Shown: positions 29,405 to 62,306 of the stretch, in pieces | Numbering within the stretch: the stretch's first letter is position 1 | How the letters are laid out: the number at the start of each line of letters is the position of its first letter | DNA from: Nesterenkonia lacusekhoensis | GTDB taxonomy: Bacteria > Actinomycetota > Actinomycetes > Actinomycetales > Micrococcaceae | Length of the DNA stretch: 64,000 nucleotides | Direction: 5' to 3' | Assembly: GCF_017876395.1 (NCBI RefSeq) | Contig: NZ_JAGINX010000001.1 | Location: forward strand, 2,232,001 to 2,296,000 | Program-made: the position numbers and the translations under genes | Notes under the pieces: model-generated | What the model saw: only the letters and a program-made list of their open reading frames with translations | Told to the model about the DNA's origin: nothing | Databases searched by the model: none

Positions 29405-30031
29405 TCAGTCCAAGGTTCCGGCACGGAAGGCTCGGGCTGATCCTTCCAGATCCTCGGCAGTGCCCAACAGCTGGTCCGCGCGGGATGTCAAGCGGCGTGC
29501 GTCCTCTGGGCTGGCGTCCTCATGCCGGCCGGCCCAGAGCGCCTGGCCGCGGGCGACCACACGGCAGAAGGCCGCGGCACGATCGAAGGCCACATCGATG
29601 TCCCCGGTGTACATCCCGGCCAGGACCATATCGGCCAGCCGGGTCATCTCTTCGGCGGTCGGCGGCTCAGGAACCCCTGCGACGGCATGGGGCACAGCAT
29701 CGCTGCGGCCCAGCCGGTAGTACTCCGACATCCTCTCCGCGTTCTTCTGGGTGGCCGCGCGGATGGCGTAGATCCGCCACAGGCTGCCGGCCAGAGAGCG
29801 CGGCGGAGAATCTGCCCAGAGCTCCGCGATCGCCTCGATGCCCTCAGTCTCAGCCAGCTTCACAAAGCGCTCGGTGATCTCCGGGTCCTCAGACTCGCGG
29901 CCGTGGAAGACCAGGGCATGAGCGGTGTCATGCGCGGCCTGCGAGATCGTGGCGGGGTCGGCACCGCCCTCCCGCTGGTCGAAGACGGCAGGTTCGGTGA
30001 ACTTAGGTCGCCGATGCGGCTGCGTGCTCAT
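29405..30031 (-). CDS. Conserved actinobacterial protein next to tRNA-Lys
   Basis: Soluble protein of 208 aa from ATG 30031, chosen for the GGAGAGGAGT ribosome site just upstream; longer forms lack one. It is mostly helical (AAHDTAHALVFHG, EEMTRLADMVLAGMYTG, FDRAAAFCRVVARG). No domain that I can name. It sits 220 bases from the tRNA-Lys 5' half and 15 bases upstream of the spermidine synthase-like gene, so the two are probably one transcript. Confidence 0.8.
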   Translation of the reverse strand: MSTQPHRRPKFTEPAVFDQREGGADPATISQAAHDTAHALVFHGRESEDPEITERFVKLAETEGIEAIAELWADSPPRSLAGSLWRIYAIRAATQKNAERMSEYYRLGRSDAVPHAVAGVPEPPTAEEMTRLADMVLAGMYTGDIDVAFDRAAAFCRVVARGQALWAGRHEDASPEDARRLTSRADQLLGTAEDLEGSARAFRAGTLD

Positions 30032-30251
30032 ACTGGGACTCCTCTCCCGGGGACTGCAGGGTCCGGGGCCCCTACTGTATTCCGCTGACGCGGGACCGCG
30101 CACCAACCCCCGCCCGACGCCGAGCCGCTCCTCTCGCCTGTCTGAACGGCGTCGCAGCCCGGGGTAAGGCGAGCTGACGACGCCGACTTCAGCGGCCGCA
30201 CCGGGTGCGATATCATCGGAAGTCGGCCTCATCGGCCACCACAACAGACCA

Positions 30252-30294
30252 GGGCCTTTAGCTCAGAGGTAGAGCATCGGACTTTTAATCCGCT
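30252..30294 (+). tRNA. tRNA-Lys(UUU), 5' half, split by the island
   Basis: The acceptor 5' strand GGGCCTT, D-arm and the anticodon arm with loop CTTTTAA (anticodon TTT) are intact. After the 13-bp core at 30282-30294 the sequence departs from any tRNA. The matching 3' half is at 58291-58332. Joined at the core, the halves give a well-folded 73-nt tRNA whose acceptor ends GGGCCTT and AGGGCCC pair. Confidence 0.93.
30282..30294 (+). repeat. attL core CTTTTAATCCGCT
   Basis: Thirteen bases identical to 58291-58303. It covers the anticodon loop and 3' anticodon stem of tRNA-Lys. Confidence 0.88.
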
Positions 30295-30398
30295 TGCCAA
30301 GGTGATCGGCCAACCTCTCAGTGATCCGCTAGATCCCCGTCATATCAACGATGCCAGGCCCTCCGGCAGCTTTCTTAGTGAGTGCCCAATGGCCGTCT

Positions 30399-30422
30399 GG
30401 TGGCCATTTTGGTGGCCATTTT
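30399..30422 (+). repeat. Candidate integrase arm sites, left end
   Basis: Two tandem GGTGGCCATTTT units about 105 bases inside the left core. A near-identical pair lies inside the right core at 58154-58177 in the same orientation. Position and tandem nature suit arm-type integrase sites; no binding is shown. Confidence 0.55.
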
Positions 30423-30450: not shown

Positions 30451-31164
30451 TCAAGACGGGCTTGGGGCGTACTTCCCTGTGTGGGGGATAGCAGGTACTT
30501 CATTCCCGCTGACGTGGGGCAGCTCCAAGGCACTCCTGATCCCATGCTGTAGCGCCAGGTCGTGTAAGAACCTTGCATTGGCCGCGTGTAGCTGCGGCTG
30601 GAGGTCTGGCTGAGGGTTGCTGATGATCAGCGCTTCGGGGGTTTGGTTTCTGCTGGCGAGGTGGTCCAGTGCCAGTTCAGTGTGGTTCTGTGTGCCCAGC
30701 CCGGAGTGTGTCACCAGAATCAGCATGGGCTTGATCCCGAAGGCATTGCCTCCGCGTTTAATGAGTTCCCAGAGCGTCAGTCCCTCTTCAGTTAATCGGA
30801 CAGTCAGCCCGCCTGATCCTTCGGCGATGAGAACATCCGTGGAACGCGTGTAGCTGGCCCACCGCTCGATATGCTCCTCGGCAGTTTTCAAGGGCTCACC
30901 GGTCACAGTGGATGCGTCTCGGGGTGCCATAGTAGGCGCGAGGCGCTGGCCTTCAGAGGTGGAGAGCAAGGTCGGCGTGCCGAGGTGCCGATGCACTGTG
31001 TCGATGTCCGCTGGGTCGTGAGAGTCAGCTTCTACGCCAGTCTGGACCGGCTTGTCGATATGGACTCGATGTCCACTCTGTAGGTAATGCTGGGCCAGTG
31101 CCGTCGTGGCGACAGTCTTGCCGATCTCAGTATCTATGCCGAGGACGCCGATCAGCAGCTTCAT
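30451..31164 (-). CDS. bioD: Dethiobiotin synthetase
   Basis: ATP-dependent carboxylase closing the ureido ring of dethiobiotin from DAPA and CO2, 237 aa. The P-loop is at the N terminus (GIDTEIGKTVATTAL, residues about 9-23), followed by KPVQTGV and the substrate loop IAEGSGGLTVRL. Last gene of the biotin operon; its start overlaps the bioF-P450 stop as ATGA (31161-31164). The stop is only 157 bases from the left island end. Codon use and GC look a little lower than the chromosome on the left, in line with transfer. Confidence 0.93.
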   Translation of the reverse strand: MKLLIGVLGIDTEIGKTVATTALAQHYLQSGHRVHIDKPVQTGVEADSHDPADIDTVHRHLGTPTLLSTSEGQRLAPTMAPRDASTVTGEPLKTAEEHIERWASYTRSTDVLIAEGSGGLTVRLTEEGLTLWELIKRGGNAFGIKPMLILVTHSGLGTQNHTELALDHLASRNQTPEALIISNPQPDLQPQLHAANARFLHDLALQHGIRSALELPHVSGNEVPAIPHTGKYAPSPS

Positions 31165-33515
31165 ATCTGGTGTCTTTCTCTCGAGTCAGTGCAGTCGTCT
31201 CCGGAAGTGACGAGCACCTGTTCCGGCGCCTGGAAGGACAGCAGTGAGGTCCAAACTGGCTCAGCTCCGGTGAGGCATGAGTGTGGCATGGCCTGTGCTG
31301 CCGTATGTACTGCAACGGTGGCTTCTTCTTCGGCCAATCCAGCGCCTAGGCAACGGTGCACGCCGTAGCCGAAGGCCAGGGACGGGTCAGAGTGATGCAT
31401 GCCGCTCAGCTGCAACAACACGTCATCGCCGGCCGCGACTTCAATATCGCCTGCAGCTGAGGGCAGTACCGTCGAATATTCTGCCTTGCGTCGCCAGGTC
31501 GGGACTGAAGATTGGTGAGCCAGAGACTTCTGCACCACGGAACGACTAGCAGCTTCGCCAGTGTCGGTGTTGCCGCAGGACTCCAGTAGGCCTGGATCTC
31601 CAAAGAGCCGGTAGAGGGCTGTGCTGATCAGCATGCTGGTGGTCTCCTGACCGGCGATGGTGAGGAAATAGCCGAAGGAGATGATCTTCGCTTCGGTGAT
31701 GCCGTGGGTCTTAAGAGCCCCGAAGAGCGTCTCAGGATCGTCAGTTTCACGAACCTGTTCCCGAAGCCAGTGATGGAATTCGACGGCCGACTCAGCCAGA
31801 CGTCGCTGACGCTGCGCGTCCGGCCAGCCCCAGAATAGTTCCAGGGAGTCCTGGCTCCATCGCTTCAGCTGATTAAACTCAGGTAGAGGCAGGCCCGTCA
31901 GCTCAGCCATAATCAGCGGCGGGAGTTTCCCCGCCAAGGAATCAGCCAGATCCACACTGCCGTGATCAGCATCCTGGGCGCACTGCTCGGCGAGGTCGGC
32001 AGCGACCTCTTGCATGCGGGGTGTGATCTGCTTGACTCTGCCCGGCGAGAAGAAGGGCGCGACCAGTTTGCGCACCTCACGGTGCCGCGGACCATCTGCA
32101 GAGGCGAGCACGGCCGGCAGTTGTAAGCCTTCACGGGCCAGGTATCGTCGGACTTGCCCGGTCAGCGGTTGAACTGCCGTCAGCGCGTTGGAGGCGGAGA
32201 ACCGTGGGGGGTCGCCCAGCACAGCTCGAATCGTCTCTGGATCCTGGAGAAGCACCTGGTCCGGCTTCTTCTCCGCTGGTCGGGCGTCGTCCTCTGCAAA
32301 GGGACATGCCGACGGTGCACCCCATGCCTTGGCCGCCACAGCAGCCACCTGGCCCAGCACCCGGGTCAGTTGTTGTGGGGGAAGATAAGACTTCAGCGTG
32401 ATCCGCAGCCTGGAGACGCCGTCAGGGACACTGGGCGGGCGGAAGCAGCCCACCAGGATGCCGAGGTCTCGTAGCTGTGATGCCGCGGCGGCAGCACTGG
32501 CGGCGTCGGGCATTCGCACGGAAACGATGGGAGAGGCTATCGGCTCAACATGCTGGGCCAGAATCGGGTTCCGAGTCAGCACTCGATCTGCGGTGCCCAT
32601 AGCTGCTTCCAGTCCGCGATGAGGCTTCTCGGTGCGGATCAGGCGAGCGGCTTCAGCGGCAGCTGCGGCCACAATCGGTGAAAGGCCGGTGTCAAAGATG
32701 AAGCTACGTGCAGTGTTGATCACGTGTGCTCGCCATGACGGTGCGTCTGCGCCGGCAATGAGCACCACCCCGCCCTGGCCGCCAAGACTCTTCGACAGGC
32801 TGGCCGTCATCAGTATGGGCGGGCTCTCGGAGGAGACGATGTCGAGCAGTTGAGCCTGCCCCAGTGCACTGCCGGCACCCAGTGTGCCGAGACTGTGTGC
32901 TTCATCGACCACCAACAGGGCCTCGTACCTCCGGCACAGTTCTGCGGCAGCTGCAAGGTCGGTGCTGTCGCCCAGCACTGAGTACACGGATTCGACGACG
33001 ACGGCAGCCCGCAGCTGCCTCTGCCAGGCAGCCTGCAGCAATCCCTCCAAACAGTCGAGGTCCTGATGAGCGAACGTGGATACCTGAGCAGAAGAGGCGA
33101 TCTTCGCGGCGTCGTGGAGACTGGCGTGAACGTGATCATCCAGGAAGAAGGCAGTGCGTGGCCCACCGACTGCGCTGAGCGCACCGAGGTTTGCCAGGTA
33201 GCCGGAGGAGAAGGTCACAGCAGCTTGGGCTCCGGTCAGGGCGCACAGCTGCTGCTCAGCGTGGTGGTGCGCCTCTGAGGTGCCGGTGACGACTCGTGAG
33301 GCGCCTGCACCCACCGGACCCTTCTCCGCCCAGGACCGCACGGCCTCTCGTAGTCGCGGGTGATTGCTGAGCCCGAGGTAATCATTGGAGGCCAGATCCA
33401 CCAGAGAAGGGTCAACAATGGCATCAGTTCGGTGAACCTGGCGGCGTTGCCGGACCCGGTTGCGCTCAGCGACCCACCTCTGCCAGGTTCCTGCCCTCTG
33501 CTCGGTCTTGCTCAC
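31161..33515 (-). CDS. bioF: BioF-cytochrome P450 fusion (8-amino-7-oxononanoate synthase + BioI-like domain)
   Basis: A 784-aa two-domain protein in one uninterrupted frame. Residues 1-395 are BioF, a PLP enzyme that joins pimeloyl thioester and L-alanine; DEAHS (204-208) and PLP Lys242 in SLSKSLGG are present. Residues about 418-784 are a cytochrome P450: C-helix HREVR (478-482), I-helix AGQETT (621-626) and haem ligand Cys722 in FGYGVHRCLG. BioI of Bacillus is a P450 that cleaves acyl-ACP to pimeloyl-ACP, BioF's substrate, so the fusion would join making and using pimelate. Oddities: the K-helix ExxR position reads KSLA (663-666), and about 18 residues of the meander are missing before the haem loop. 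The P450 may thus be atypical or decaying. Confidence 0.88.
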   Translation of the reverse strand: MSKTEQRAGTWQRWVAERNRVRQRRQVHRTDAIVDPSLVDLASNDYLGLSNHPRLREAVRSWAEKGPVGAGASRVVTGTSEAHHHAEQQLCALTGAQAAVTFSSGYLANLGALSAVGGPRTAFFLDDHVHASLHDAAKIASSAQVSTFAHQDLDCLEGLLQAAWQRQLRAAVVVESVYSVLGDSTDLAAAAELCRRYEALLVVDEAHSLGTLGAGSALGQAQLLDIVSSESPPILMTASLSKSLGGQGGVVLIAGADAPSWRAHVINTARSFIFDTGLSPIVAAAAAEAARLIRTEKPHRGLEAAMGTADRVLTRNPILAQHVEPIASPIVSVRMPDAASAAAAASQLRDLGILVGCFRPPSVPDGVSRLRITLKSYLPPQQLTRVLGQVAAVAAKAWGAPSACPFAEDDARPAEKKPDQVLLQDPETIRAVLGDPPRFSASNALTAVQPLTGQVRRYLAREGLQLPAVLASADGPRHREVRKLVAPFFSPGRVKQITPRMQEVAADLAEQCAQDADHGSVDLADSLAGKLPPLIMAELTGLPLPEFNQLKRWSQDSLELFWGWPDAQRQRRLAESAVEFHHWLREQVRETDDPETLFGALKTHGITEAKIISFGYFLTIAGQETTSMLISTALYRLFGDPGLLESCGNTDTGEAASRSVVQKSLAHQSSVPTWRRKAEYSTVLPSAAGDIEVAAGDDVLLQLSGMHHSDPSLAFGYGVHRCLGAGLAEEEATVAVHTAAQAMPHSCLTGAEPVWTSLLSFQAPEQVLVTSGDDCTDSRERHQI

Positions 33516-34864
33516 CCGTGCACCTCCTCGACAGCACCGCAGATGGCCGCGGTGATCGTGGCGACTTCTGCCTCATCACAGATATAAGGCGGCATGGTGT
33601 AGACCGCTCGGCGGAACGGGCGCACCCAGGCGCCTCTGTCCACCGCGGCGCGAGTCACCGCAGGAATATTCACAGGCTCGTGAAGTTCGACCACCCCGAC
33701 TCCGCCGAGAACTCTGACATCGGCAACACTGTGAAGCCGCCTCGCTGGGGAAAGCCCGTGGTGAAGGGAACGTTCAAGAGTGGAGACGGACTGGGGCCAG
33801 GGGTGCTGCGGGTTGTGCAGCAGCTTCAAAGAGGCCAGAGAGACCGCGCAGGCCAGAGGGTTGGCCATGAAGGTCGGACCATGCAGCAAGGCCCCCGGCA
33901 TGCCGGCCCCGGGCGTACTCACGGTAGAAGCGACGTCGTCTGTGACCAGAACAGCAGCCGCTGTCATAGTCCCTCCCGTGAGAGCCTTGCCGATGCACAT
34001 CACATCAGGGGAGACACCTGCCCATTCTGCGGCGAAGAAAGTCCCAGTGCGGCCGAACCCGGTGGCAATCTCGTCGAAGATAAGCAGCAGTCCATACTCG
34101 TTGCACACCTGGCGCATCACTTGTAGCGCCTCTGGGTGGTAGATATGCATCCCGCCGGCGCCTTGAAGCACCGGCTCGGCAATCAACGCGGTGAGTTCGT
34201 CCCGGTGGTCAGAGGCCAGTCGCCGCACCTCTGCAGCCCAGACTGCGAATTGGTCCGTGTCGGTCTGCCACTCACCGGTCTCTGGGCATCGCCGGGCTGC
34301 AGGTGGCCGGGGTGCGAAGACATGCTTAGGAACCAGGGCGTCGAAAGCGGCGTGCATCCCGTCCACCGGATCGCAGGTGGCCATGGCACCGATGGTGTCG
34401 CCATGGTAGCCCCCGCGCAGTGCTATCACCCGGTTGCGCTGGGTCCGGCCGGCAGCTGCCTGGTACTGGTATGCGATCTTCAGTGCGACTTCAACAGAGA
34501 CCGAACCGGAATCGGCGAGGAAGACTCGGGAGAGCCCTTCTGGGGCCACTGCTGTCAACTGTTCTGCCAGCTCCACAGCAGGCGAGTGGGTCAATCCACC
34601 GAACATGACGTGTGCGAACTTCTCCGCCTGGCGATTCAGCGCCGAGTTGAGCTCAGGGTGGGCATACCCGTGAACAGCAGCCCACCAGGACGACATCGCG
34701 TCCACCACACGGCGCGGGGCGGCTCCTCGGCCGTGTTGGTCACGGTCTGCCACGAGGTGCAGGTGGGCTCCCTCGGCTCCGATCACGGAGAAGAACTGTT
34801 CAGCGCCTGCCGGAGAATACGGGTGCCAGAGAAGGCGTTGGTCCTCGGAGAGCAGATCAGGCAT
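33512..34864 (-). CDS. bioA: Adenosylmethionine-8-amino-7-oxononanoate aminotransferase
   Basis: Class III PLP aminotransferase making DAPA (7,8-diaminopelargonate) with SAM as amino donor, 450 aa. Family features: LLWHPYSP at the N terminus, MSSWWAAVHGY, GGYHGDTIGAM, the DEIATGFGRTG Asp region and PLP Lys in CIGKALTGG. The start at ATG 34864 gives the conserved N terminus LLSEDQRLLWHPYSP. It overlaps the bioB stop by eight bases, and its stop overlaps the bioF-P450 start as ATGA. A C-terminal Arg motif (VRPFRRAVYTMPPYI) binds the substrate carboxylate in known BioA. Confidence 0.94.
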   Translation of the reverse strand: MPDLLSEDQRLLWHPYSPAGAEQFFSVIGAEGAHLHLVADRDQHGRGAAPRRVVDAMSSWWAAVHGYAHPELNSALNRQAEKFAHVMFGGLTHSPAVELAEQLTAVAPEGLSRVFLADSGSVSVEVALKIAYQYQAAAGRTQRNRVIALRGGYHGDTIGAMATCDPVDGMHAAFDALVPKHVFAPRPPAARRCPETGEWQTDTDQFAVWAAEVRRLASDHRDELTALIAEPVLQGAGGMHIYHPEALQVMRQVCNEYGLLLIFDEIATGFGRTGTFFAAEWAGVSPDVMCIGKALTGGTMTAAAVLVTDDVASTVSTPGAGMPGALLHGPTFMANPLACAVSLASLKLLHNPQHPWPQSVSTLERSLHHGLSPARRLHSVADVRVLGGVGVVELHEPVNIPAVTRAAVDRGAWVRPFRRAVYTMPPYICDEAEVATITAAICGAVEEVHG

Positions 34865-36083
34865 TGGGGGCCAGCTCCGTGCCGGCACCACGCCGGCGGA
34901 TCTCCAACGGCGGCACTGCGTGGCGCTCCTCCGTCGTCGCTGTTGAGCATCCGTTGCAGCCCGCGCCACCTGCTGCGCCAGCGATGGGACATGTGCCACA
35001 CGAGGAGGTGTGCTGCAGACTCGGAGGTGGGGTGGCCGCCTCGATCTCCTCCAACAGGTGAGCCGGGTCCTGTGTGGATCCGTCCGGTTTCATGATGACG
35101 AAACCGTGATCAGCAAGCATGCGAAGGTCCTCCGCGGCGGCCTGTCCATTGCTGGTCAGATAGTCGCCCAAGAACAGAGAGTTGGCGGCCTCCAGGGCCA
35201 TCGGCTGCAGAGACCGCAGATGCAGCTCGCGTCCGCCTGCGATGCGGACTTCCTTGTCCGGGCACACCAGCCGGGCCAGACAGACGATCGTCAGCGCCCG
35301 GTGAGGAGTGAGATCCCATGTGCCGGCCAAGGGGGTGCCCTCGAACGGCATCAGGAAGTTGATCGGGATGGAGTCTGCCTCCATCTCCCGCAGCGCGAAC
35401 AGCGCCTCGACGATCTGCTCGTCGGTCTCTTTCATTCCCACGATGAGTCCAGAACAGGGAGACAGGCCAGCTGACTTGGCTTTGTCCACGGTGGAGACCC
35501 GGTCCGCGTAAGAATGCGTGGAGACGATGTTCTCATGGTGGGACTCTGCAGTATTGATGTTGTGGTTATAGGCGTCCACACCGGCTTCTGCCAGACGCTC
35601 AGCCTGCCTATCCTTCAATATCCCCAGACAGGCACAGACCTCTGCACCGGGAGCGGTCTCATGGACAGCCCCGACCATGTCGATGACCCGGGCGATGTCC
35701 CGGTTCGAAGGCCCTCGCCCGGAGGCGACCAGGCACACCCGCGAAGCACCTGCGGCCAGCCCTGCCCGAGCCTGACTGGCCGCCTCCTCGGTCGACAGCC
35801 ACGAGTACTTAAGGATCTCAGCCTGGGATCCCAGCCGCTGAGAGCAGTAGCTGCAGTCCTCAGGACACAACCCTGATTTCAGGTTGACCAAGTAATTGAC
35901 CTTTACCGTGTTGGCGAAGTGGTGGCGACGGACCTCAGAGGCCGCGGCCACCAGCTCCATCCGCCTGGTCTCCGGAGCTTGCAGAACCTGCAGGGCTTCC
36001 TCGACCGAGAGTCCTCCCCCTACAAGGGACTGCTGCGCCAGCTGTGAGAAGGGGACGCTTCTTGAACGGCGTTCAATAGTCAT
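34857..36083 (-). CDS. bioB: Biotin synthase
   Basis: Radical SAM enzyme inserting sulfur into dethiobiotin, 408 aa. The SAM cluster motif is CPEDCSYCSQR (CxxxCxxC). Other blocks are YNHNINTAE, CSGLIVGMKET and the Arg-bearing IRIAGGRE-like VRIAGGRELHL. Start ATG 36083 gives MTIERRSRSV; upstream in-frame residues contain the operator and are unlikely coding. The C terminus is about 60 residues longer than short BioB proteins and holds two Cys pairs (CGTCP and CNGC, ten residues apart) before a basic RRRGAGTELAPNA end. First gene of the operon, behind BioQ-type operators. Confidence 0.94.
   Translation of the reverse strand: MTIERRSRSVPFSQLAQQSLVGGGLSVEEALQVLQAPETRRMELVAAASEVRRHHFANTVKVNYLVNLKSGLCPEDCSYCSQRLGSQAEILKYSWLSTEEAASQARAGLAAGASRVCLVASGRGPSNRDIARVIDMVGAVHETAPGAEVCACLGILKDRQAERLAEAGVDAYNHNINTAESHHENIVSTHSYADRVSTVDKAKSAGLSPCSGLIVGMKETDEQIVEALFALREMEADSIPINFLMPFEGTPLAGTWDLTPHRALTIVCLARLVCPDKEVRIAGGRELHLRSLQPMALEAANSLFLGDYLTSNGQAAAEDLRMLADHGFVIMKPDGSTQDPAHLLEEIEAATPPPSLQHTSSCGTCPIAGAAGGAGCNGCSTATTEERHAVPPLEIRRRGAGTELAPNA
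36062..36076. promoter_or_regulatory. BioQ-type operator 1 (within start of bioB)
   Basis: TTGAACGGCGTTCAA is a perfect inverted repeat with a 3-base spacer. It lies in the first codons of bioB, just downstream of the likely transcription start. Confidence 0.75.
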
Positions 36084-36104
36084 AAGGTAACCATAATCAC
36101 CCAG

Positions 36105-36119
36105 TTGAACGCTGTTCAA
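36105..36119. promoter_or_regulatory. BioQ-type operator 2 (bioB promoter)
   Basis: TTGAACGCTGTTCAA, a perfect inverted repeat. Read on the minus strand it overlaps a likely -35 (TTGAAC), with TATGGT as a possible -10 about seven bases before the bioB ATG, which suggests a leaderless transcript. Confidence 0.78.
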
Positions 36120-36257
36120 ATCGGCCTGCTGGCGCTCTTTCGCGACAGAGAGGCGACGCATTAGCCCCGCAGTTCCGCCTGCATCCCGCTTGGCACCTCA
36201 TCACTCCGTCCGGGGTCAGCAGTACGCTATCCATTGATGACCCGCGGGGACTGCTGA

Positions 36258-37549: not shown

Positions 37550-38496
37550 TCCGCGTGGAAGCGGGCATGTCGACCGCGAGGTTCTGCCAGCTCTTCGACA
37601 TGCCCGAGCGGACCTGGCGCCGCTGGCAGGCCAAGGCCCGCACCGGGACGGCGGTGAAGGGACCGTGGCCGCAACCGGGACGGCAGGCTGCCAGGGAACT
37701 GGTGGTCAAGCACGCGCTGGCCCATCCGGCGTGGGGGCATCGGAAGATCTGGGCAATGGTCCGCCACGACGGGCATGTGGTTTCCGAGGCGACCGTGCTG
37801 CGAATCCTGCGCGACGAGGGGCTGATTCTGCCCGCGCAGTACCAACGGGAGCGACGGAAGCTGGCCGAGCGGCGCAAGGCCGCGTTCGCCACCGAGCCCT
37901 CAGGCCCGAACCAAGTCTGGCAGCTGGACTTCAGCGAGTTCGAGACCACCACCGGAGGGACCTGGCGGCTGGCCGGGTGCCGGGACTACTGGTCCAAGTA
38001 CGAGCACCCCTTCCACGTTTCGCCCACCGGGAACCAGCACGACGCGATCGACGCGATCGAGTTGGCCCTGGCCGACTACGAGGCCATGTTCGGTCACCCG
38101 CTGGTCGAGGCCTGCCCGGTCGATCCCGAGACCGGTGAGCTGTTGCCCGTGGTGACCATCGTGACGGACAACGGCGGGCCGTTCCGGTCCTTCCGCTTCG
38201 AGTCCTTCATCGCCGCCCACCCCGAGCTACACCACGTGCGCACCCGAGTGAAGACCCCGGGGCAGAACGGGTCCCGTGAACGCGGCTTCGGCACGCTGAA
38301 GTACGAACGGCTCTACCTGGACGAGATCGACGACGCGATCGTGCTCGCCGAGCGGGCCGAGGACTACCGGATCGAGTACAACGAGCTCCGGCCCCACGAG
38401 GCCATCTCATGGAACCGGCCCAAGGAGGTGCACCTGGGCCTGGCCGACCCCACCACCCCGACATTCAAAACCAAGGAAATCCTGCCAACTACTTGA
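37546..38496 (+). CDS. IS transposase OrfB (DDE)
   Basis: Retroviral-integrase-type catalytic subunit, 316 aa, with acidic residues in WQLDFSEF, VTDNGGPF and GSRERGFGTLKYE, the D,D(35)E layout. The GTG at 37546 overlaps the OrfA stop, indicating translational coupling instead of the usual IS3 frameshift. The element looks intact and possibly active. Confidence 0.9.
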   Translation: MIRVEAGMSTARFCQLFDMPERTWRRWQAKARTGTAVKGPWPQPGRQAARELVVKHALAHPAWGHRKIWAMVRHDGHVVSEATVLRILRDEGLILPAQYQRERRKLAERRKAAFATEPSGPNQVWQLDFSEFETTTGGTWRLAGCRDYWSKYEHPFHVSPTGNQHDAIDAIELALADYEAMFGHPLVEACPVDPETGELLPVVTIVTDNGGPFRSFRFESFIAAHPELHHVRTRVKTPGQNGSRERGFGTLKYERLYLDEIDDAIVLAERAEDYRIEYNELRPHEAISWNRPKEVHLGLADPTTPTFKTKEILPTT

Positions 38497-39630
38497 CGCG
38501 GGACACCGAGCATCAGCATCATCGTGGCCGAGACGTGCCGGGCATCATGAAGCCGGACATGGTCAACTCCGCACTCCTCCAGGAGTGCCTTCCAGCGCTT
38601 CCAGTCACTTTCGGGGCGATGGGGACGACCGTTGAGCTGACAGAAGACCAGATCCACGGTGACCCCGTTCGCATCGGTGTAGGGCTTGCGCCGTTTACCT
38701 TCAGCTTCGTTCAGCGCGAGGTGTTCTGCGTGCAGTTTCTTGAGGTGCTTCAGAACCTGCTCGGGCACAGGGAGGCTACGCCGACCGGCCAGGGACTTCG
38801 GGGTTCCGAAGAAGAGTCCGCCACCGTACCTGGATGGGCAGAGATGTGGTCGTTTGGCGGGGCAGTGGGTGATGTCATCGCATCCGTGCCGCCATTTCTT
38901 GGGGTAGATAGTCCTGCGAAGGTCAATTTGGCCGTTATCGAGGTCGACCGCGTCCCACCCCAGCCCGAGGACCTCGCCTTGCCGAGGTCCATAGGTGAGG
39001 GCCATCATCCAACGTGTGGCCTCAGATGGTGGCAGCGTCTCTGCGTGAGCGATGATCTTCCGAGCATCCTCAGGAGTGAAGGCCGGCGGCTCAAAGGCCT
39101 CATCGCTGCGCCCCGAAGGGGCATCCACCTTCAGCAGCGGATTGGAGCCCAGTTTTCCGCGCTTCACCGCTGCTTTGAATGCGCCGTTGAGGATGCGGTG
39201 AAGTTGGAGCACCGAAGCAACGGCCTTGCCCTCAGCTCGCTTACGTGCGTAGAACGTCTCGATGTGCTCGGGTTTGAGCTTGTTTAGCTTGGTTCGGGCC
39301 AGTCTTGTGTCTTTCAGCCAGGCGATCTTGGCCTCGTAGCCCTCCAGGGTGCTGTCTTTCAGGGATCCCTGTTTAATGGTGTACAGCCAGTGATCCAGCC
39401 ACTCCTGAAGGGTAGGAGCGGAACCGATGGTGACGGTGCCATCTTCCACCTGACGAATGAGGTCGCGGCGGGCAGCCGCACAGAGAGCCTGGGATCGGCC
39501 ATAGACCGGCTTGCGGATGCGCTTTCCGCTGATCGGGTCAGTCCCGACGGTGACATCAGCCCTCCAGCGTCCTTTGCTGGGGTCTGCTGAAGGTTCGGTT
39601 GACTTCAAGACTGCTTAGAAAGCAGGAAGG

Positions 39631-39945
39631 ATGGAAGTCATGCCGAAAGTCGTCTACACCGAGGAGTTTCGCCGGACCGCCGTGGAGCTGGTTGCTGGCG
39701 GGATGAGCCAGAAGCAGGTCTGCGCGGATATGGGCTGCTCGAAATCTGCGCTGCAGTCCTGGGTCCGGGCCGCGAAGCTCGAAGAGCACGGGATCGAGCC
39801 GGCTAAGGATGCTGAGGAGTCTCGGGAACAGGCGAAGATGATGCGCCGGATCCGTGAGCTGGAGCAGGAGAACAAGGTCCTGCGCGAAGCTGCGGCGTAT
39901 CTCTCCCAGGCGAATTTGAAGCTGGGTGGGGCCTCCCCAAAATGA
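39631..39945 (+). CDS. IS3 transposase OrfA
   Basis: Helix-turn-helix subunit, 104 aa (MSQKQVCADMGCSKSALQSW) with a Leu/Glu coiled coil (IRELEQENKVLREAAAYL). The start may be ATG 39631 or 39640; AGCAGGAAGGATGG precedes the first. Its last bases overlap OrfB (ATGA region at 39942), where coupling or frameshifting would make the fusion transposase. Confidence 0.88.
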   Translation: MEVMPKVVYTEEFRRTAVELVAGGMSQKQVCADMGCSKSALQSWVRAAKLEEHGIEPAKDAEESREQAKMMRRIRELEQENKVLREAAAYLSQANLKLGGASPK

Positions 39946-40826
39946 TGTTCCCGCTGGTCCGTGACCTTGCCGCCGCCGGGGTGCCGGTGGCGGTGACCTG
40001 CCGGGTTCTGGGTTTCACCAAGCAAGCGTTCTACAAATGGGCAGCAGCCCCGATTTCTCAGCGGGATTGGGAGGATGCCCACCTGCTCAACGCCGCAATC
40101 GATGTTCATGCTGATGACCCGGAGTTCGGGCACCGGTTCATCGCCGATGAGCTCGCCGCCGCCGGGTACCGGGCCTCTGAGCGGCGGGTGTGGCGGCTGT
40201 GCTCACAGCAGCAGATCTTCTCCGCCACTCAGCGCAAGGGCAGGAAGAATCACAAGAAGCCAGGCCCGCCAGTCTGTGATGACCTGCTGGCCCGGGATTT
40301 CACCGCCACCAGGTCGAATCAGAAATGGCTGGTGGACATCACCGAGCACCGTACCGGTGAGGGCAAGCTCTACCTATGTGCGATCAAGGATGTCTTCAGC
40401 AACCGGATCGTAGGCTATGCGATCGATTCCAGGATGAAATCACGGCTGGCTGTGGCCGCCCTGCATGATGCGGTTTCCCGCCGCGGAGGACCCTCAGAAG
40501 TGGCCGGATGCATTGTCCATTCGGATAGAGGGTCGCAATTTCGTTCACGGAAATTCCAGCGGGCGCTGAAGGGATACAAGCTGGCTGGGTCCATGGGACG
40601 GGTCGGGGCTGCTGGGGATAACGCGGCGATGGAGAGCTTCTTCTCGACGTTGCAGAAGAACGTGCTCAACAGGCAGTCCTGGGCCACCAGGGATCAGTTG
40701 CGAGCCCGGATCATTCACTGGATCGAAGCGACCTATCATCGCCGCCGCCGACAGCGGAGGCTGGGTAAGCTGACTCCGGTCGAATACGAGACCGTTCACA
40801 AGGATGCCGTCGCCCTGGCGGCATAA
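39942..40826 (+). CDS. IS3 transposase OrfB (DDE)
   Basis: Catalytic subunit, 294 aa, with the complete IS3 core: WLVDITEH (Asp), VHSDRGSQF (Asp), and NAAMESFFSTLQKN (Glu), plus the HTH_21 segment FGHRFIADELAAAGY. Full length and uninterrupted, so the element is probably competent. Confidence 0.92.
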   Translation: MMFPLVRDLAAAGVPVAVTCRVLGFTKQAFYKWAAAPISQRDWEDAHLLNAAIDVHADDPEFGHRFIADELAAAGYRASERRVWRLCSQQQIFSATQRKGRKNHKKPGPPVCDDLLARDFTATRSNQKWLVDITEHRTGEGKLYLCAIKDVFSNRIVGYAIDSRMKSRLAVAALHDAVSRRGGPSEVAGCIVHSDRGSQFRSRKFQRALKGYKLAGSMGRVGAAGDNAAMESFFSTLQKNVLNRQSWATRDQLRARIIHWIEATYHRRRRQRRLGKLTPVEYETVHKDAVALAA

Positions 40827-40858
40827 GCCCGACGGTCAACCGAACCTTCAGCAGACCC

Positions 40859-41110
40859 AACGCTCTCGGCGACGGAGTGAAGCACAAGCACACAAGGCCA
40901 CGGCGGCCCCAGACCAACGGCAAAGTGGAGCGATTCAACCGCACTCTGATGAAGGAATGGGCATACGCCCGTGCCTACTCCAGCGAGTCAGCCCGTGAAG
41001 CCTCCTACGAGGCCTTCCTCCACGAATACAATCACCACCGAACCCACACCGCTATCGGAGGCCTGGTTCCCTCAGCCCGCGTTCACAACCTCACGGGGAA
41101 GTACACCTAG
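40859..41110 (+). pseudogene. IS481-family transposase C-terminal fragment
   Basis: The frame NALGDGVKHKHTRPRRPQTN continues through GKVERFNRTLMKEWAYARAY to the stop, the final 80 residues of an IS481 transposase (catalytic Glu in KVERF). The rest was removed at the right end of the IS3 element. Confidence 0.88.
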
Positions 41111-41259
41111 TGTGCGGTCATGTTCACACCGACTGGAAGACCAGCCTCTCACCCCAGGGCACCGCACAGGTCAACGTCGGTGTCGATCAGTGGGACTTCC
41201 GGCCTGTCTCCGCAGAAGAGGTCCACCGTGCCATCAGAGATCCCAGTAAGCGCAGCTGA
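41110..41259 (+). pseudogene. Metallophosphoesterase-like C-terminal fragment
   Basis: The frame VCGHVHTDWKTS...VNVGVDQWDFRPVSAEEV carries a GHxH metal motif and the typical NVGVD end of calcineurin-like phosphoesterases. Only about 49 codons remain, so it is a remnant of a truncated gene. Confidence 0.55.
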
Positions 41260-41466
41260 CCTTGTGCCTCACAAGCCGGACCAACTACAGCACCCGCGAT
41301 GCCTCAACCCGCAAGCACGGAGAGGAGATCTTCAGCAACGAAGTGAACGACAAGAGTCAGATGGGCTATGATAGAGGATGCTGTTCTGGGCAGAAAGGGC
41401 TTCCGGCCCCCTGAGCCTGGAAGACAACAAAACTGAATATTGAGGAGGCAGCGCAGCGCGCTGCAT

Positions 41467-41757
41467 GGGCCTTTAGCTCAGTTGGTAGAGCATCGGACTT
41501 CAAATAGGAGCGCCTCGGTGGAAACGCTGGGGATGACACCACTCAAAGTCGGGGAACCCTTCCTAGAAAAATCTAGATGGCAATCCCGAGCCAAGCCGAG
41601 ACCACGTCTCGGAAGGTGTAGAGACTGGACGGGTGGCACCTACGGCGCAAGCTACGGTGAAGGGACAGTCCAGACCACGAACGCCCTCCGGGGCGGCGGC
41701 GAAAGTCGAAGTGGGAAGTTAATCCGCAGGTCGAGGGTTCGAGCCCCTCAGGGCCCA
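41467..41757 (+). tRNA. tRNA-Lys(UUU) interrupted by a group I intron
   Basis: The 5' exon at 41467-41500 runs from GGGCCTT to U34 (…CGGACTT); the 3' exon at 41719-41757 starts TTAATCCGC and ends AGGGCCCA. Joined they make a 73-nt tRNA with correct D-, anticodon-, T-arms and a GGGCCTT/AGGGCCC acceptor stem, anticodon UUU. CCA is not encoded. It differs from the split chromosomal tRNA-Lys in the D-loop, variable region and T-stem, so it is a distinct gene that arrived with the island. It can supply the tRNA that the island destroyed. Confidence 0.93.
41501..41718 (+). ncRNA. Group I intron (IC3-like) in the tRNA-Lys anticodon
   Basis: A 218-nt self-splicing-type intron without an open reading frame, inserted after U34 and ending in G (omega-G, 41718). 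Core elements resemble cyanobacterial tRNA-Leu(UAA) introns: GGGGAACCC, CAATCCCGAGCCAAGCC (P4/J4-5 side), a P6-like hairpin CCGAGAC-CAC-GTCTCGG, AGAGACTGGACGGG with P7 strand GACTG, and GGGACAGTCC with the pairing strand CAGTC. The insertion point after U34 is also that of the tRNA-Leu introns. Splicing itself is inferred. Confidence 0.9.
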
Positions 41758-41769
41758 CCGCATCAGGTT

Positions 41770-41800: not shown

Positions 41801-41899
41801 AGCTGGATCTCATGTAGAATAGAGTCATCATATCCTCCACGCCTCTCGGAGAAGCGCAACTTGGGGGATTTTTCTTTCCCGCCTGACTAGACTCAGGAC

Positions 41900-42835
41900 A
41901 TGGCGAAGCGACGAATGCCCCGTGCCCGCGGAAGCAGACGCTTCGAGAAGCCGCCCCTGAGCTCATCTGCGTTAGTGGATCTGCTCAGAAGCCGTGGACT
42001 TGCCATCACAGACGAAGCTCAGGCAGCCCAGCAGATCAGCAACATCGGCTATTACCGCCTCTCCGCCTACATGGTCCCATTCCAACGTGGTCGTGATAAT
42101 CATGACTTCAAGCCAGGGGCAACATTCGAAGATGTGATGAGCCTCTACTCGTTTGACCGCCAGCTCCGGCTCCTCGTCCTGGATGCGCTGGAGCACATTG
42201 AGGTCAGGTTGCGGGCCGCCGTGACTGACGAAATGTCACTGAAGCATCAGAACGCCTTCTGGTACACCGAACCGTCGTATTTCCGAGATTTGGCTCGGCA
42301 CTCTGAATTTCTGGATCAGGTAAGTGAACGTAGCCGACGTCAGCTCGAAGGCCGGCCTGAAGACCCCGGCGACGTACACAATTACCGGTCTGCCTTAGAG
42401 CATTACTTGGTCACATATGGCGAACCGGACTTCCCTCCCTCATGGATCATGATGGAGGGGCTCACCTTCGGACAGGTGAAGTCGCTCTATGACAACCTCC
42501 AGCAGCGTGAAGACTCGAACCGCATCGCCCGCCAGCTCGGCACCCCCGGACCAGTGTTGACATCGTGGTTGAGGACTTTTCTGCGGTTCCGAAACATCGG
42601 CGCCCACCATGGCCGCTTATGGAACGTAGTTCTCGGCGTCGCACCCACGGCTCCAAAGAGCAAGTCCGTTCCTTGGCCGCGATCTCAATGGAAGATCACC
42701 GACCCCCGGCACGGTCCCATCCGCATATATCCAGGACTTTCCGCCATCCAATCACTGTTACTGACCACCGCCTCAGACCCCACGTGGTCACAACGTCTCT
42801 ATGACCTGGTTTCGGACTACCAGGCTGTCCTGTGA
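41900..42835 (+). CDS. Abi_2 (AbiD/AbiF-like) HEPN-domain protein
   Basis: Putative abortive-infection RNase, 311 aa. The Abi_2 N-terminal block NIGYYRLSAYMVPF is followed by FEDVMSLYSFDRQLRLLVLD and HIEVRLRAAV. The HEPN active-site motif Rx4H appears as RNIGAHHGRLWN near residue 230. Such proteins stop phage growth by cutting RNA; some AbiF-type toxins are held by an RNA antitoxin. It starts 142 bases after the intron-bearing tRNA-Lys and ends 13 bases before the left end of the Tn552-like transposon. The target RNA is unknown. Confidence 0.85.
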   Translation: MAKRRMPRARGSRRFEKPPLSSSALVDLLRSRGLAITDEAQAAQQISNIGYYRLSAYMVPFQRGRDNHDFKPGATFEDVMSLYSFDRQLRLLVLDALEHIEVRLRAAVTDEMSLKHQNAFWYTEPSYFRDLARHSEFLDQVSERSRRQLEGRPEDPGDVHNYRSALEHYLVTYGEPDFPPSWIMMEGLTFGQVKSLYDNLQQREDSNRIARQLGTPGPVLTSWLRTFLRFRNIGAHHGRLWNVVLGVAPTAPKSKSVPWPRSQWKITDPRHGPIRIYPGLSAIQSLLLTTASDPTWSQRLYDLVSDYQAVL

Positions 42836-57925: not shown

Positions 57926-58290
57926 CTACTAAGGATGGCCCTGTGTGCCACGGGACTCATCGGTTGCACGCGTGCCTGATTCTGAGGTCCGCTGGTTGGC
58001 AGTCGCGAGTCTGAGCTTGAAGAGGTTTGCGCTGCTGCTCGACCCCCCTGGTTTAGTTCCTGAAGATGACTTGCCCCAGGCCCCTCGACCCTAGTGCCCA
58101 TATTCAAAAGCCTCGGAGGTGGCTCCCCAAAGGACCCCTGAGCCGCTCATTGTGGTGGCCATTGTGGTGGCCATTTTGCTCCACATCCACCGCTTCCGAC
58201 CGACGCTCGCCGACATGCGAAACTGTAAAATCCCAGGTCAGTCGACACCCATCGATACCGGCCGATTCCAGCAGAACCCACTCAGGGGAT
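57926..58290. other. Island right end without a gene
   Basis: About 365 bases between the IS481 copy and the right att core. No credible coding frame. The tandem GGTGGCCATT units at 58154-58177 are the only clear structure. Confidence 0.6.
58154..58177 (+). repeat. Candidate integrase arm sites, right end
   Basis: Two tandem GGTGGCCATT units, nearly identical to 30399-30422 and a similar distance (about 114 bases) from the core. Confidence 0.55.
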
Positions 58291-58303
58291 CTTTTAATCC
58301 GCT
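58291..58303 (+). repeat. attR core CTTTTAATCCGCT
   Basis: Identical to 30282-30294; starts the 3' half of the split tRNA-Lys. Confidence 0.88.
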
Positions 58304-58332
58304 GGTCGTGGGTTCGATCCCCACAGGGCCCA
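58291..58332 (+). tRNA. tRNA-Lys(UUU), 3' half, split by the island
   Basis: From C32 of the anticodon loop to discriminator A73. The T-arm is GTGGG-TTCGATC-CCCAC and the acceptor strand AGGGCCC pairs with GGGCCTT of the 5' half at 30252. The sequence before 58291 is island DNA and does not form a tRNA 5' half. Confidence 0.92.
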
Positions 58333-61553: not shown

Positions 61554-62306
61554 TCAGAGGTCCTTTCGCTCCAACCAAGCCACAGAGACGGCCAGCAGGG
61601 CGAAGGTGAGCAGGCCTGATGCCCCCAACACGGTGAGCACATCGACTGCGCTGATGTCCCCGGAGTCCGCGAAGGTCCCGGTGCCCAGCTGGGTGGACCG
61701 TCCGATGAGCGCGTAGGGGAACACCCAGACAACCCCGGGAATTTCGGCCAGCAGCAGGACCACCGCGAGCCCGGCTCCGGTGAAGGCCACTGCGATCGGA
61801 ACTGCGAATGAGCGGAAGAGCATCGATAGCCCGGACTGCAGCACTGCTACCGGCAGGCACGCCACGGCGATCAACGCAGTGATGCCGAGGTATTCCGCCG
61901 GCGGCATCCCGGGAAGCCCGAAGACGAGTTTCCCGACGGCGACGACCGAGCCCAGCAGAAGGACCTGCATTCCTGCGGTGAGCAGGCCCAGGGAGGCGGC
62001 CTTTGCCGTGACGATGCGCCAGGTCGAGGTGGGACCGCTCATCAGAGCGTTCCAGTTGCCGCCCTGATGCTCGCTGCGCCAGACCAGTGAGGCGAGGATC
62101 CCGATGCCGACAGCCAGGGGGAAGAGCCCGTAGAAGACCGCTGAGCGCAGCCACATGGTGTGCCAGCCATCGTCTGGCTGTTCGCCTGCCATGAGCGTGT
62201 TCACTGCTCCGGAGAGCACCATGATCAGCGGCAGCAGGGTCACCACTGTCCAGCTCAAGGAGCGTTTGAGCTTGATGAGCTCAGCTCGGAGGGCCTGCAT
62301 GATCAT
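61554..62306 (-). CDS. ABC-2 permease, lantibiotic-immunity (LanE/LanG) type
   Basis: Membrane permease of 250 aa with six helices. The LanE/MutE-like start LRAELIKLKRSLSWTVVTLL and the segment SLVWRSEHQGGNWNALMSGP identify the lantibiotic/bacitracin immunity transporter group. It would expel a lipid-II-targeting peptide from the membrane. The start overlaps the other permease stop (ATGA, 62303-62306). Confidence 0.85.
   Translation of the reverse strand: MIMQALRAELIKLKRSLSWTVVTLLPLIMVLSGAVNTLMAGEQPDDGWHTMWLRSAVFYGLFPLAVGIGILASLVWRSEHQGGNWNALMSGPTSTWRIVTAKAASLGLLTAGMQVLLLGSVVAVGKLVFGLPGMPPAEYLGITALIAVACLPVAVLQSGLSMLFRSFAVPIAVAFTGAGLAVVLLLAEIPGVVWVFPYALIGRSTQLGTGTFADSGDISAVDVLTVLGASGLLTFALLAVSVAWLERKDL

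Follow-up and report, generated by a model that had tools for sequence, protein, structure and literature searches.

Features of the locus

The window, a 64-kb stretch of the chromosome of Nesterenkonia lacusekhoensis, carries a split tRNA-Lys(UUU) gene on its forward strand. The 5' exon (41467–41500) is 34 nt long and ends with CGGACTT. The 3' exon (41719–41757) is 39 nt long, starts with TTAATCCG, and ends with the discriminator A at 41757. Between them lies an insert of 218 nt (41501–41718), in which P3 is formed by 41539–41544 and 41631–41636, and P7 by 41623–41627 and 41666–41670. An earlier note had read this arrangement as a tRNA-Lys(UUU) gene on a mobile island, interrupted after U34 by a group I intron. 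Our analysis bears this out. The insertion does follow U34, and the insert contains the core strings quoted in the note together with P7 strands GACTG/CAGTC and a terminal G. ARAGORN, applied to the joined exons with the following CC, names tRNA-Lys(ttt). Applied to the unspliced window, ARAGORN reports no tRNA. The region immediately 5' of the gene (41107–41466, forward strand) is common to the islands described below and presumably contains the promoter, although no sigma-70-like site was found there and the promoter and terminator scan was empty. Conservation spans at least 41107–41759, with 94–95% identity in three congeners (G001, G006, and G014).

The earlier note also knew of no lysine case of such an intron on an actinobacterial mobile island. 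Our searches of the open-access literature brought up no tRNA-Lys with a full-length group I intron, but among genomes the case does not stand alone: 36 of the 45 loci from our pattern scan are tRNA-Lys genes of this kind. An insert of 22–49 nt is too short to hold a group I core. Such lengths are given in the paper that claims a group I intron in cyanobacterial tRNA-Lys(CTT) (PMC5733544).

The insert is a group I intron

A P1–P9 model including the P3/P7 pseudoknot was drawn from the window sequence and then counted on 30 aligned introns. These were taken from the 42 tRNA-Lys introns available (41 from the pattern scan and one from phage Daredevil), omitting close Microbacterium kin and one Nesterenkonia copy. 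In total, 96.2% of 1822 cells are paired. Double-sided changes occur in 37 of the 62 pairs; shuffles give a mean of 16.1 (sd 2.4), none of 500 reaches 37, and structures slid along the alignment give 10–18 such pairs. Every cell of P3 and P7 is paired, with double changes in 5 of 6 and 2 of 5 pairs, respectively. P4 is likewise fully paired in all 30 introns; P4 and P6 are invariant across the set and therefore uninformative on covariation. P1 is 88.9% paired, five rows being shifted by one column. When the rows are inspected individually, the splice-site U-G in P1 and the final intron G are found in 30 of 30 introns, which is partly by construction, since extraction required a final G and a CTT exon end for most rows. 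Precursor RNA folding gives a z-score of −1.90, which is weak evidence alone. The intron tree is poorly resolved. The insert is a real group I fold and probably self-splices.

The match of the Rfam Intron_gpI model to 41491–41692 scores 31.4 bits (E 3.4e-6 over 601 nt), although this is below the gathering score of 50. No second Intron_gpI match turned up in the genome at E values as high as 1. Among seven other sources, the same model gives 57.9 bits for one, 36.0 and 36.8 bits for two, and no match at E 0.001 for four, including Daredevil. According to the earlier note, the insertion after U34 corresponds to that of cyanobacterial tRNA-Leu introns. The tRNA-Lys intron may resemble tRNA-Leu introns and is a candidate for subgroup IC3. 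Bacterial tRNA group I introns, which occur in tRNA-Leu(UAA), tRNA-Ile(CAU), tRNA-Arg, and tRNA-fMet and are treated in part in PMC8450103 and PMC5733544, are likewise small, lie in the anticodon loop, and share conserved core strings. The window intron differs in residing in tRNA-Lys(UUU) and in a replacement gene on an integrated element.

The intron gene lies inside an island that splits the host tRNA-Lys(UUU) gene

Two halves of a second tRNA-Lys(UUU) gene flank the intron gene at a distance. The 5' half (attL, 30252–30293, forward strand) carries the core CTTTTAATCCGC at 30282–30293 and gives an Rfam tRNA match of 30.7 bits at 30252–30312. The gene at 29405–30244, the upstream neighbor of attL, also precedes tRNA-Lys in several congeners. 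The left end of the element (30294–30422) contains GGTGGCCATTTT repeats, possibly arm-type integrase sites, and 30251–30422 is about 90% identical in three congeners. A 25-nt match to the repeat recurs at right ends. The right end (58145–58290) reads CCCACTCAGGGGAT ahead of the core; it is the same in G001, G004, G006, and G014 and 78% identical in G003. It is followed by attR (58291–58332, forward strand), which comprises the core and the 3' half of the disrupted host gene. The right end adjoins host 3' halves in G001, G003, G004, and G006 too. At the left junction, the sequence beyond TTTTAATCCGC departs from the tRNA and is common to G001, G004, and G006 (about 90%) and G003 (72%).

In the congener G019, an intact, intronless tRNA-Lys(UUU) gene equals the joined attL and attR halves at 74 of 74 positions, the unusual D-loop included. 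This intact gene, the shared element ends, and the presence of both halves lead us to read 30294–58290 (about 28 kb) as an island, with the intron gene inside, which agrees with the mobile-island setting of the earlier note; that note had not recognized the gene as a replacement for the host copy disrupted by the island. The 13-nt core CTTTTAATCCGCT covers the anticodon loop and the 3' strand of the anticodon stem. Cores are 13–14 nt in five islands, and in none of them does so short a core rebuild the host tRNA-Lys(UUU). In the replacement gene, the intron interrupts the attachment core CTTTTAATCCGC.

One could suppose instead that the intron gene is the resident host tRNA, and that the island inserted alongside it with a copy of the 5' half only. 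The left remnant is indeed 94% identical to exon 1 over 34 nt. However, a displaced host 3' half sits with the right end of the element at 58145–58332, the same right end stands on host 3' halves in G001, G004, and G006, and the G019 gene is intact and intronless. The position of attR refutes this explanation unless two nested islands are assumed, and we consider it almost untenable. A model in which the element brought exon 1 and the intron only, with the host giving exon 2 and the junction at 41719, was also tried and fell on the host 3' half at 58291–58332.

Additional tRNA-Lys 3' halves are found near this locus. Two lie past the window, at chromosome positions 2301587–2301642 and 2303175–2303222 (G000 C1, the genome of the window), and probably stem from other insertions. 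A further one lies downstream of attR in G003 (L087:3955). Together they suggest repeated insertions at this locus.

Recombinase and cargo of the island

A tyrosine recombinase (38364–39608, reverse strand; Pfam Phage_integrase, PHROG integrase) is degenerate at both ends and matches only residues 15–380 of a 454-residue relative. The 454-residue frame is open in G001, G004, G006, and G014, and no integrase was found in G003 at E 1e-60. The best phage matches of the island recombinase are 44% identical in Arthrobacter phages and 33% in Fionnbharth. In the Arthrobacter phage Karkharias, no tRNA was found in the stretch examined. An IS3-type insertion (39580–40858, forward strand; HTH_Tnp_1 and rve) with 24-nt perfect inverted ends overlaps the start of the recombinase.

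The reverse-strand genes at 30451–36161 encode AAA_26, aminotransferase, and radical SAM proteins, the last with a BATS domain (Pfam), which we interpret as biotin-type cargo; one protein in this region joins an aminotransferase with P450-like stretches. Downstream of the intron gene, an abiF RNA (41833–41869, forward strand; 35.9 bits, just below the gathering score of 37) is directly followed by an Abi_2/AbiD protein gene (41900–42835, forward strand). The segment 41833–42835 also follows the intron tRNA in G014 (C15, 94% identity). No phage structural family was found among the subset of island ORFs searched. A TraG/TraD-type protein is encoded near the intron gene of G006, on a contig without attL or attR. 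The island is thus possibly an integrative conjugative element.

The split gene is the only tRNA-Lys(UUU) gene found in the genome

The genome (G000, 2.74 Mb) is rated 99.9% complete. It gives 53 Rfam tRNA matches at E up to 0.1, one of which is the attL half. Among the other 52 matches (46 loci), ARAGORN names tRNA-Lys(CUU) and no tRNA-Lys(UUU), leaving three uncalled (C1:778400–778472, C1:778019–778139, and a weak one at 1366260). A DNA search of the genome with the intron gene returns the gene itself and the left remnant only. The first two uncalled matches lie near tmRNA, tRNA-Tyr, and tRNA-Trp (L072): 778400–778472 is a tRNA-like match of 38.7 bits with a loop that reads CUA, and 778019–778139 is an Rfam tRNA match of 54.8 bits whose anticodon loop carries an insertion of about 50 nt and to which no anticodon is assigned.

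AAA codons are present in 8 of 14 window ORFs, which were picked for size. A tRNA bearing the CUU anticodon would not be expected to decode these codons. Since AAA is in use and the searches of the genome revealed no tRNA-Lys(UUU) gene besides the split one, the latter very probably must splice. For the same reason, it is presumably also essential.

It might be argued that the intron no longer splices and that the tRNA gene is a decaying remnant, as the Rfam score is under threshold and the island recombinase is degenerate. We regard this as very unlikely, given that the searches of so complete a genome revealed no further tRNA-Lys(UUU) and that P3, P4, and P7 are fully paired throughout the set of 30 introns.

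We therefore favor, with good confidence from the sequence comparisons, that the intron-split gene rescues the disrupted host tRNA-Lys(UUU) and is spliced. The integrative element would have recombined through the 13-nt core into the host gene, leaving two useless halves. The replacement tRNA-Lys(UUU) that it carries is complete, with the group I intron placed within this very core. Removal of the intron from the RNA would then be needed for reading AAA codons.

Relatives in Nesterenkonia and a secondary site

We searched 30 Nesterenkonia genomes (our own and 29 others, some incomplete). The intron gene is present in seven, with two copies in G014. Five contain attL, attR, and the intron gene (G000, G001, G003, G004, and G006). 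All three are on one contig only in G000; attL and the gene share a contig in G001 and G004, the gene and attR do so in G003, and none are together in G006. In G012, the intron gene is present and no att halves were found. Also in G012 (C2, L368), a related integrase (52% identity) directly adjoins a tRNA 3' half whose anticodon is CAT.

In G014, the same element (integrase 95% identical) is located elsewhere. Its left junction falls after GGACTTTC and its right junction before AATACGC; we read the right flank as a class I methyltransferase, which places the element in a methyltransferase-like gene. The target shares 13 of 15 positions with the tRNA core. We take this as support rather than proof, as such sites are not very rare: one non-att site of this quality occurs in about 216 kb of the loci examined. 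A pattern search of 12 kb around the old position in G014 found no tRNA-Lys, and all tRNA-Lys(UUU) matches found in this assembly of about 100 contigs are intron-split. G014 would fit an element that met no intact core.

A related module in phage Daredevil

The strategy in which an element destroys a host tRNA gene and carries the replacement is known from phages. A study of tRNA-dependent lysogeny (Guerrero-Bustamante and Hatfull 2024, PMC10865867), which covers Fionnbharth and its relatives, describes phages whose integration site is a short core within a tRNA gene, that of tRNA-Lys(UUU) or a different one, which is not rebuilt, and reports that in the tested system the isotype tRNA carried by such phages is needed for lysogeny. 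The attP/attB cores are 11 bp in BrutonGaster, 10 bp in Fionnbharth, and 11 bp in Cain (PMC10865867). The island shares with this system a tyrosine integrase, a short core located in the tRNA-Lys(UUU) anticodon region, a host tRNA that is not rebuilt, and an element-borne isotype tRNA. It differs in that the setting is an island whose searched ORFs include no phage structural gene, and in that the rescue tRNA is split by a group I intron within the attachment core.

The same source names two Gordonia phages, Mollymur and Daredevil, that do not rebuild their target tRNA, of which only Mollymur is said there to encode its own tRNA; Daredevil uses tRNA-Lys-TTT and forms clear plaques as predicted (PMC10865867). 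We find that Daredevil (NC_048021) does contain a tRNA-Lys(UUU), split by a 238-nt intron of the window-intron family and located beside the integrase. Its integrase, the attP-like core CGGACTTTTAATCCGC, and the split tRNA-Lys(UUU) all lie within 2.3 kb. ARAGORN does not report this gene. In the related phages Bantam, SpeedDemon, Mollymur, and DatBoi, the same slot is occupied by an uninterrupted tRNA with anticodon CAT. The rescue tRNA of the published exception may therefore have been missed on account of its intron, which suggests that rescue tRNAs with introns get overlooked.

The Daredevil module resembles the island in its tyrosine integrase, its attP-like core with the tRNA-Lys anticodon arm, and the adjoining intron-split tRNA-Lys(UUU). 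It differs in belonging to a phage, and the two integrases are only 25% identical (E 1e-30). Clear plaques are unexpected if the split tRNA rescued lysogens; perhaps the intron is not spliced there, or the phage is defective in some other way.

A possible role of the intron in shielding the rescue gene

A rescue gene with an intact core could itself be recombined. Splitting the core by an intron would keep the gene from being a target for the integrase of the element or for related integrases. We thus considered that the intron shields the rescue gene at the DNA level, while a functional copy with the full core is supplied in RNA. The window gene shares 9 contiguous nt with attP in DNA and 12 nt after splicing. 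After splicing, the shared stretch is 16 nt in Daredevil, 12 nt in G000, G001, and G006, 13 nt in G004, and 14 nt in G003. The island values of 12–14 nt are close to the attP/attB cores of 13–14 nt.

For comparison, we examined 11 phages, representing about six lineages, that carry an intronless tRNA-Lys. The attP core was taken from its position upstream of the integrase. Rescue gene and attP share 7–11 nt: 7 in BrutonGaster, DirkDirk, UPIE, DuncansLeg, Ruthiejr, and Fionnbharth, 9 in Kahlid, GuuelaD, and Finnry, and 11 in DyoEdafos and Cain. The loop-closing pair is not the usual A-U in five of the 11 rescue tRNAs (BrutonGaster, DirkDirk, UPIE, Ruthiejr, and Fionnbharth). Compared with the host gene, the rescue gene agrees less well with attP in BrutonGaster and Fionnbharth, and equally well in Cain.

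Several observations argue against shielding. The A-U loop-closing pair is normal in 6 of the 11 phages, where other positions, or attP itself, account for the mismatch. The 11 nt shared with attP in Cain equal its 11-bp attP/attB core, and DyoEdafos shares as many. Rescue genes of the CAT type share 9–10 nt with attP (Bantam, Mollymur, and DatBoi 9, SpeedDemon and OneUp 10), so a shield would not always be needed. Because the loop-closing pair is altered in only five of the 11 intronless genes, we rate shielding slightly short of an even chance.

The shared idea appears in a model for archaea (PMC3293823, citing Randau and Soell 2008), where integration into a tRNA gene is prevented by an intron that lies in the att site. 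That model differs in that archaeal tRNA introns are concerned there, and a bacterial ribozyme-type intron in a replacement gene here. The present locus would give this idea, that tRNA introns protect against integration, a directly testable bacterial case. It also joins bacterial tRNA group I introns with tRNA-dependent integration, two subjects treated apart in the literature that we found.

Intron-split tRNA genes outside Nesterenkonia

One scan of 84,980 species genomes with a lysine-biased exact pattern, whose exactness makes the counts lower bounds, yielded 45 loci, 36 in tRNA-Lys and nine in tRNA-Arg(UCU). The tRNA-Lys loci comprise 21 in Microbacterium, six in Nesterenkonia (five species), two in actinobacterial MAGs, two in Frankiaceae, two in Prauserella, one in Phytoactinopolyspora, and two in Sphingomonas. 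The two MAGs group with Microbacterium by flank. The tRNA-Arg(UCU) loci (L102, L108, L114, L117, L118, L131, L132, L136, and L141) belong to Rhodothermales and other Bacteroidota and have a related intron after U36. Automatic exon joining that included viral loci (at least 80 loci, at least 120 stretches) left many tRNA types ambiguous and was not used for counts; among the matches listed, it agrees on tRNA-Arg(UCU) for the nine loci or their twins. A tblastn search of L098–L147 with the integrase gave no match, but this negative is uninformative: the six Nesterenkonia loci there are also negative, as their integrase lies beyond the reach of the loci.

The downstream flank is common to 22 loci (Microbacterium and one MAG), so the intron tRNA-Lys gene looks resident in Microbacterium. 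If the intron acts as a shield, its fixation in such chromosomes would also confer immunity on the host against elements integrating at this site. In one Microbacterium MAG (G122), a short contig additionally carries a tRNA-Lys(ttt) without interruption.

This distribution bears on a competing explanation, to which we likewise give slightly less than an even chance: the element picked up an already intron-bearing tRNA-Lys from a host such as Microbacterium, and the gene rescues while the intron has no role. The position of the intron in the att core would be a coincidence, as group I introns and integrases both favor anticodon loops. The same intron is in fact present in 28 actinobacterial tRNA-Lys loci outside Nesterenkonia, including the 22 with the shared flank, and rescue tRNAs without an intron also occur, some of which retain most of the core. 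Moreover, the core CTTTTAATCCG is found in none of five IMG/VR contigs with tRNA-Lys introns, which may be fragments; such introns would thus occur also without this use. Against a passive intron, two distant settings, the islands and Daredevil, with integrases 25% identical, keep the full core after splicing, nine of the 11 intronless phages share only 7–9 nt with attP, and the G014 element sits at a secondary site.

In two of the IMG/VR contigs (L143 and L145), three core matches of the intron type fall within about 1.3 kb, apparently in a tRNA cluster. The tRNA and intron used as query match 1274 plasmid records, 1272 at 60–80% identity and two at 99% or more. Beside aac(3)-IId lies a tRNA-Leu(UAA) gene (L191:4001–4240, corresponding to pCTX-M3 61840–62079) that is split by a group I intron of related type; it is unannotated in the two records viewed, which are not the two at 99% or more.
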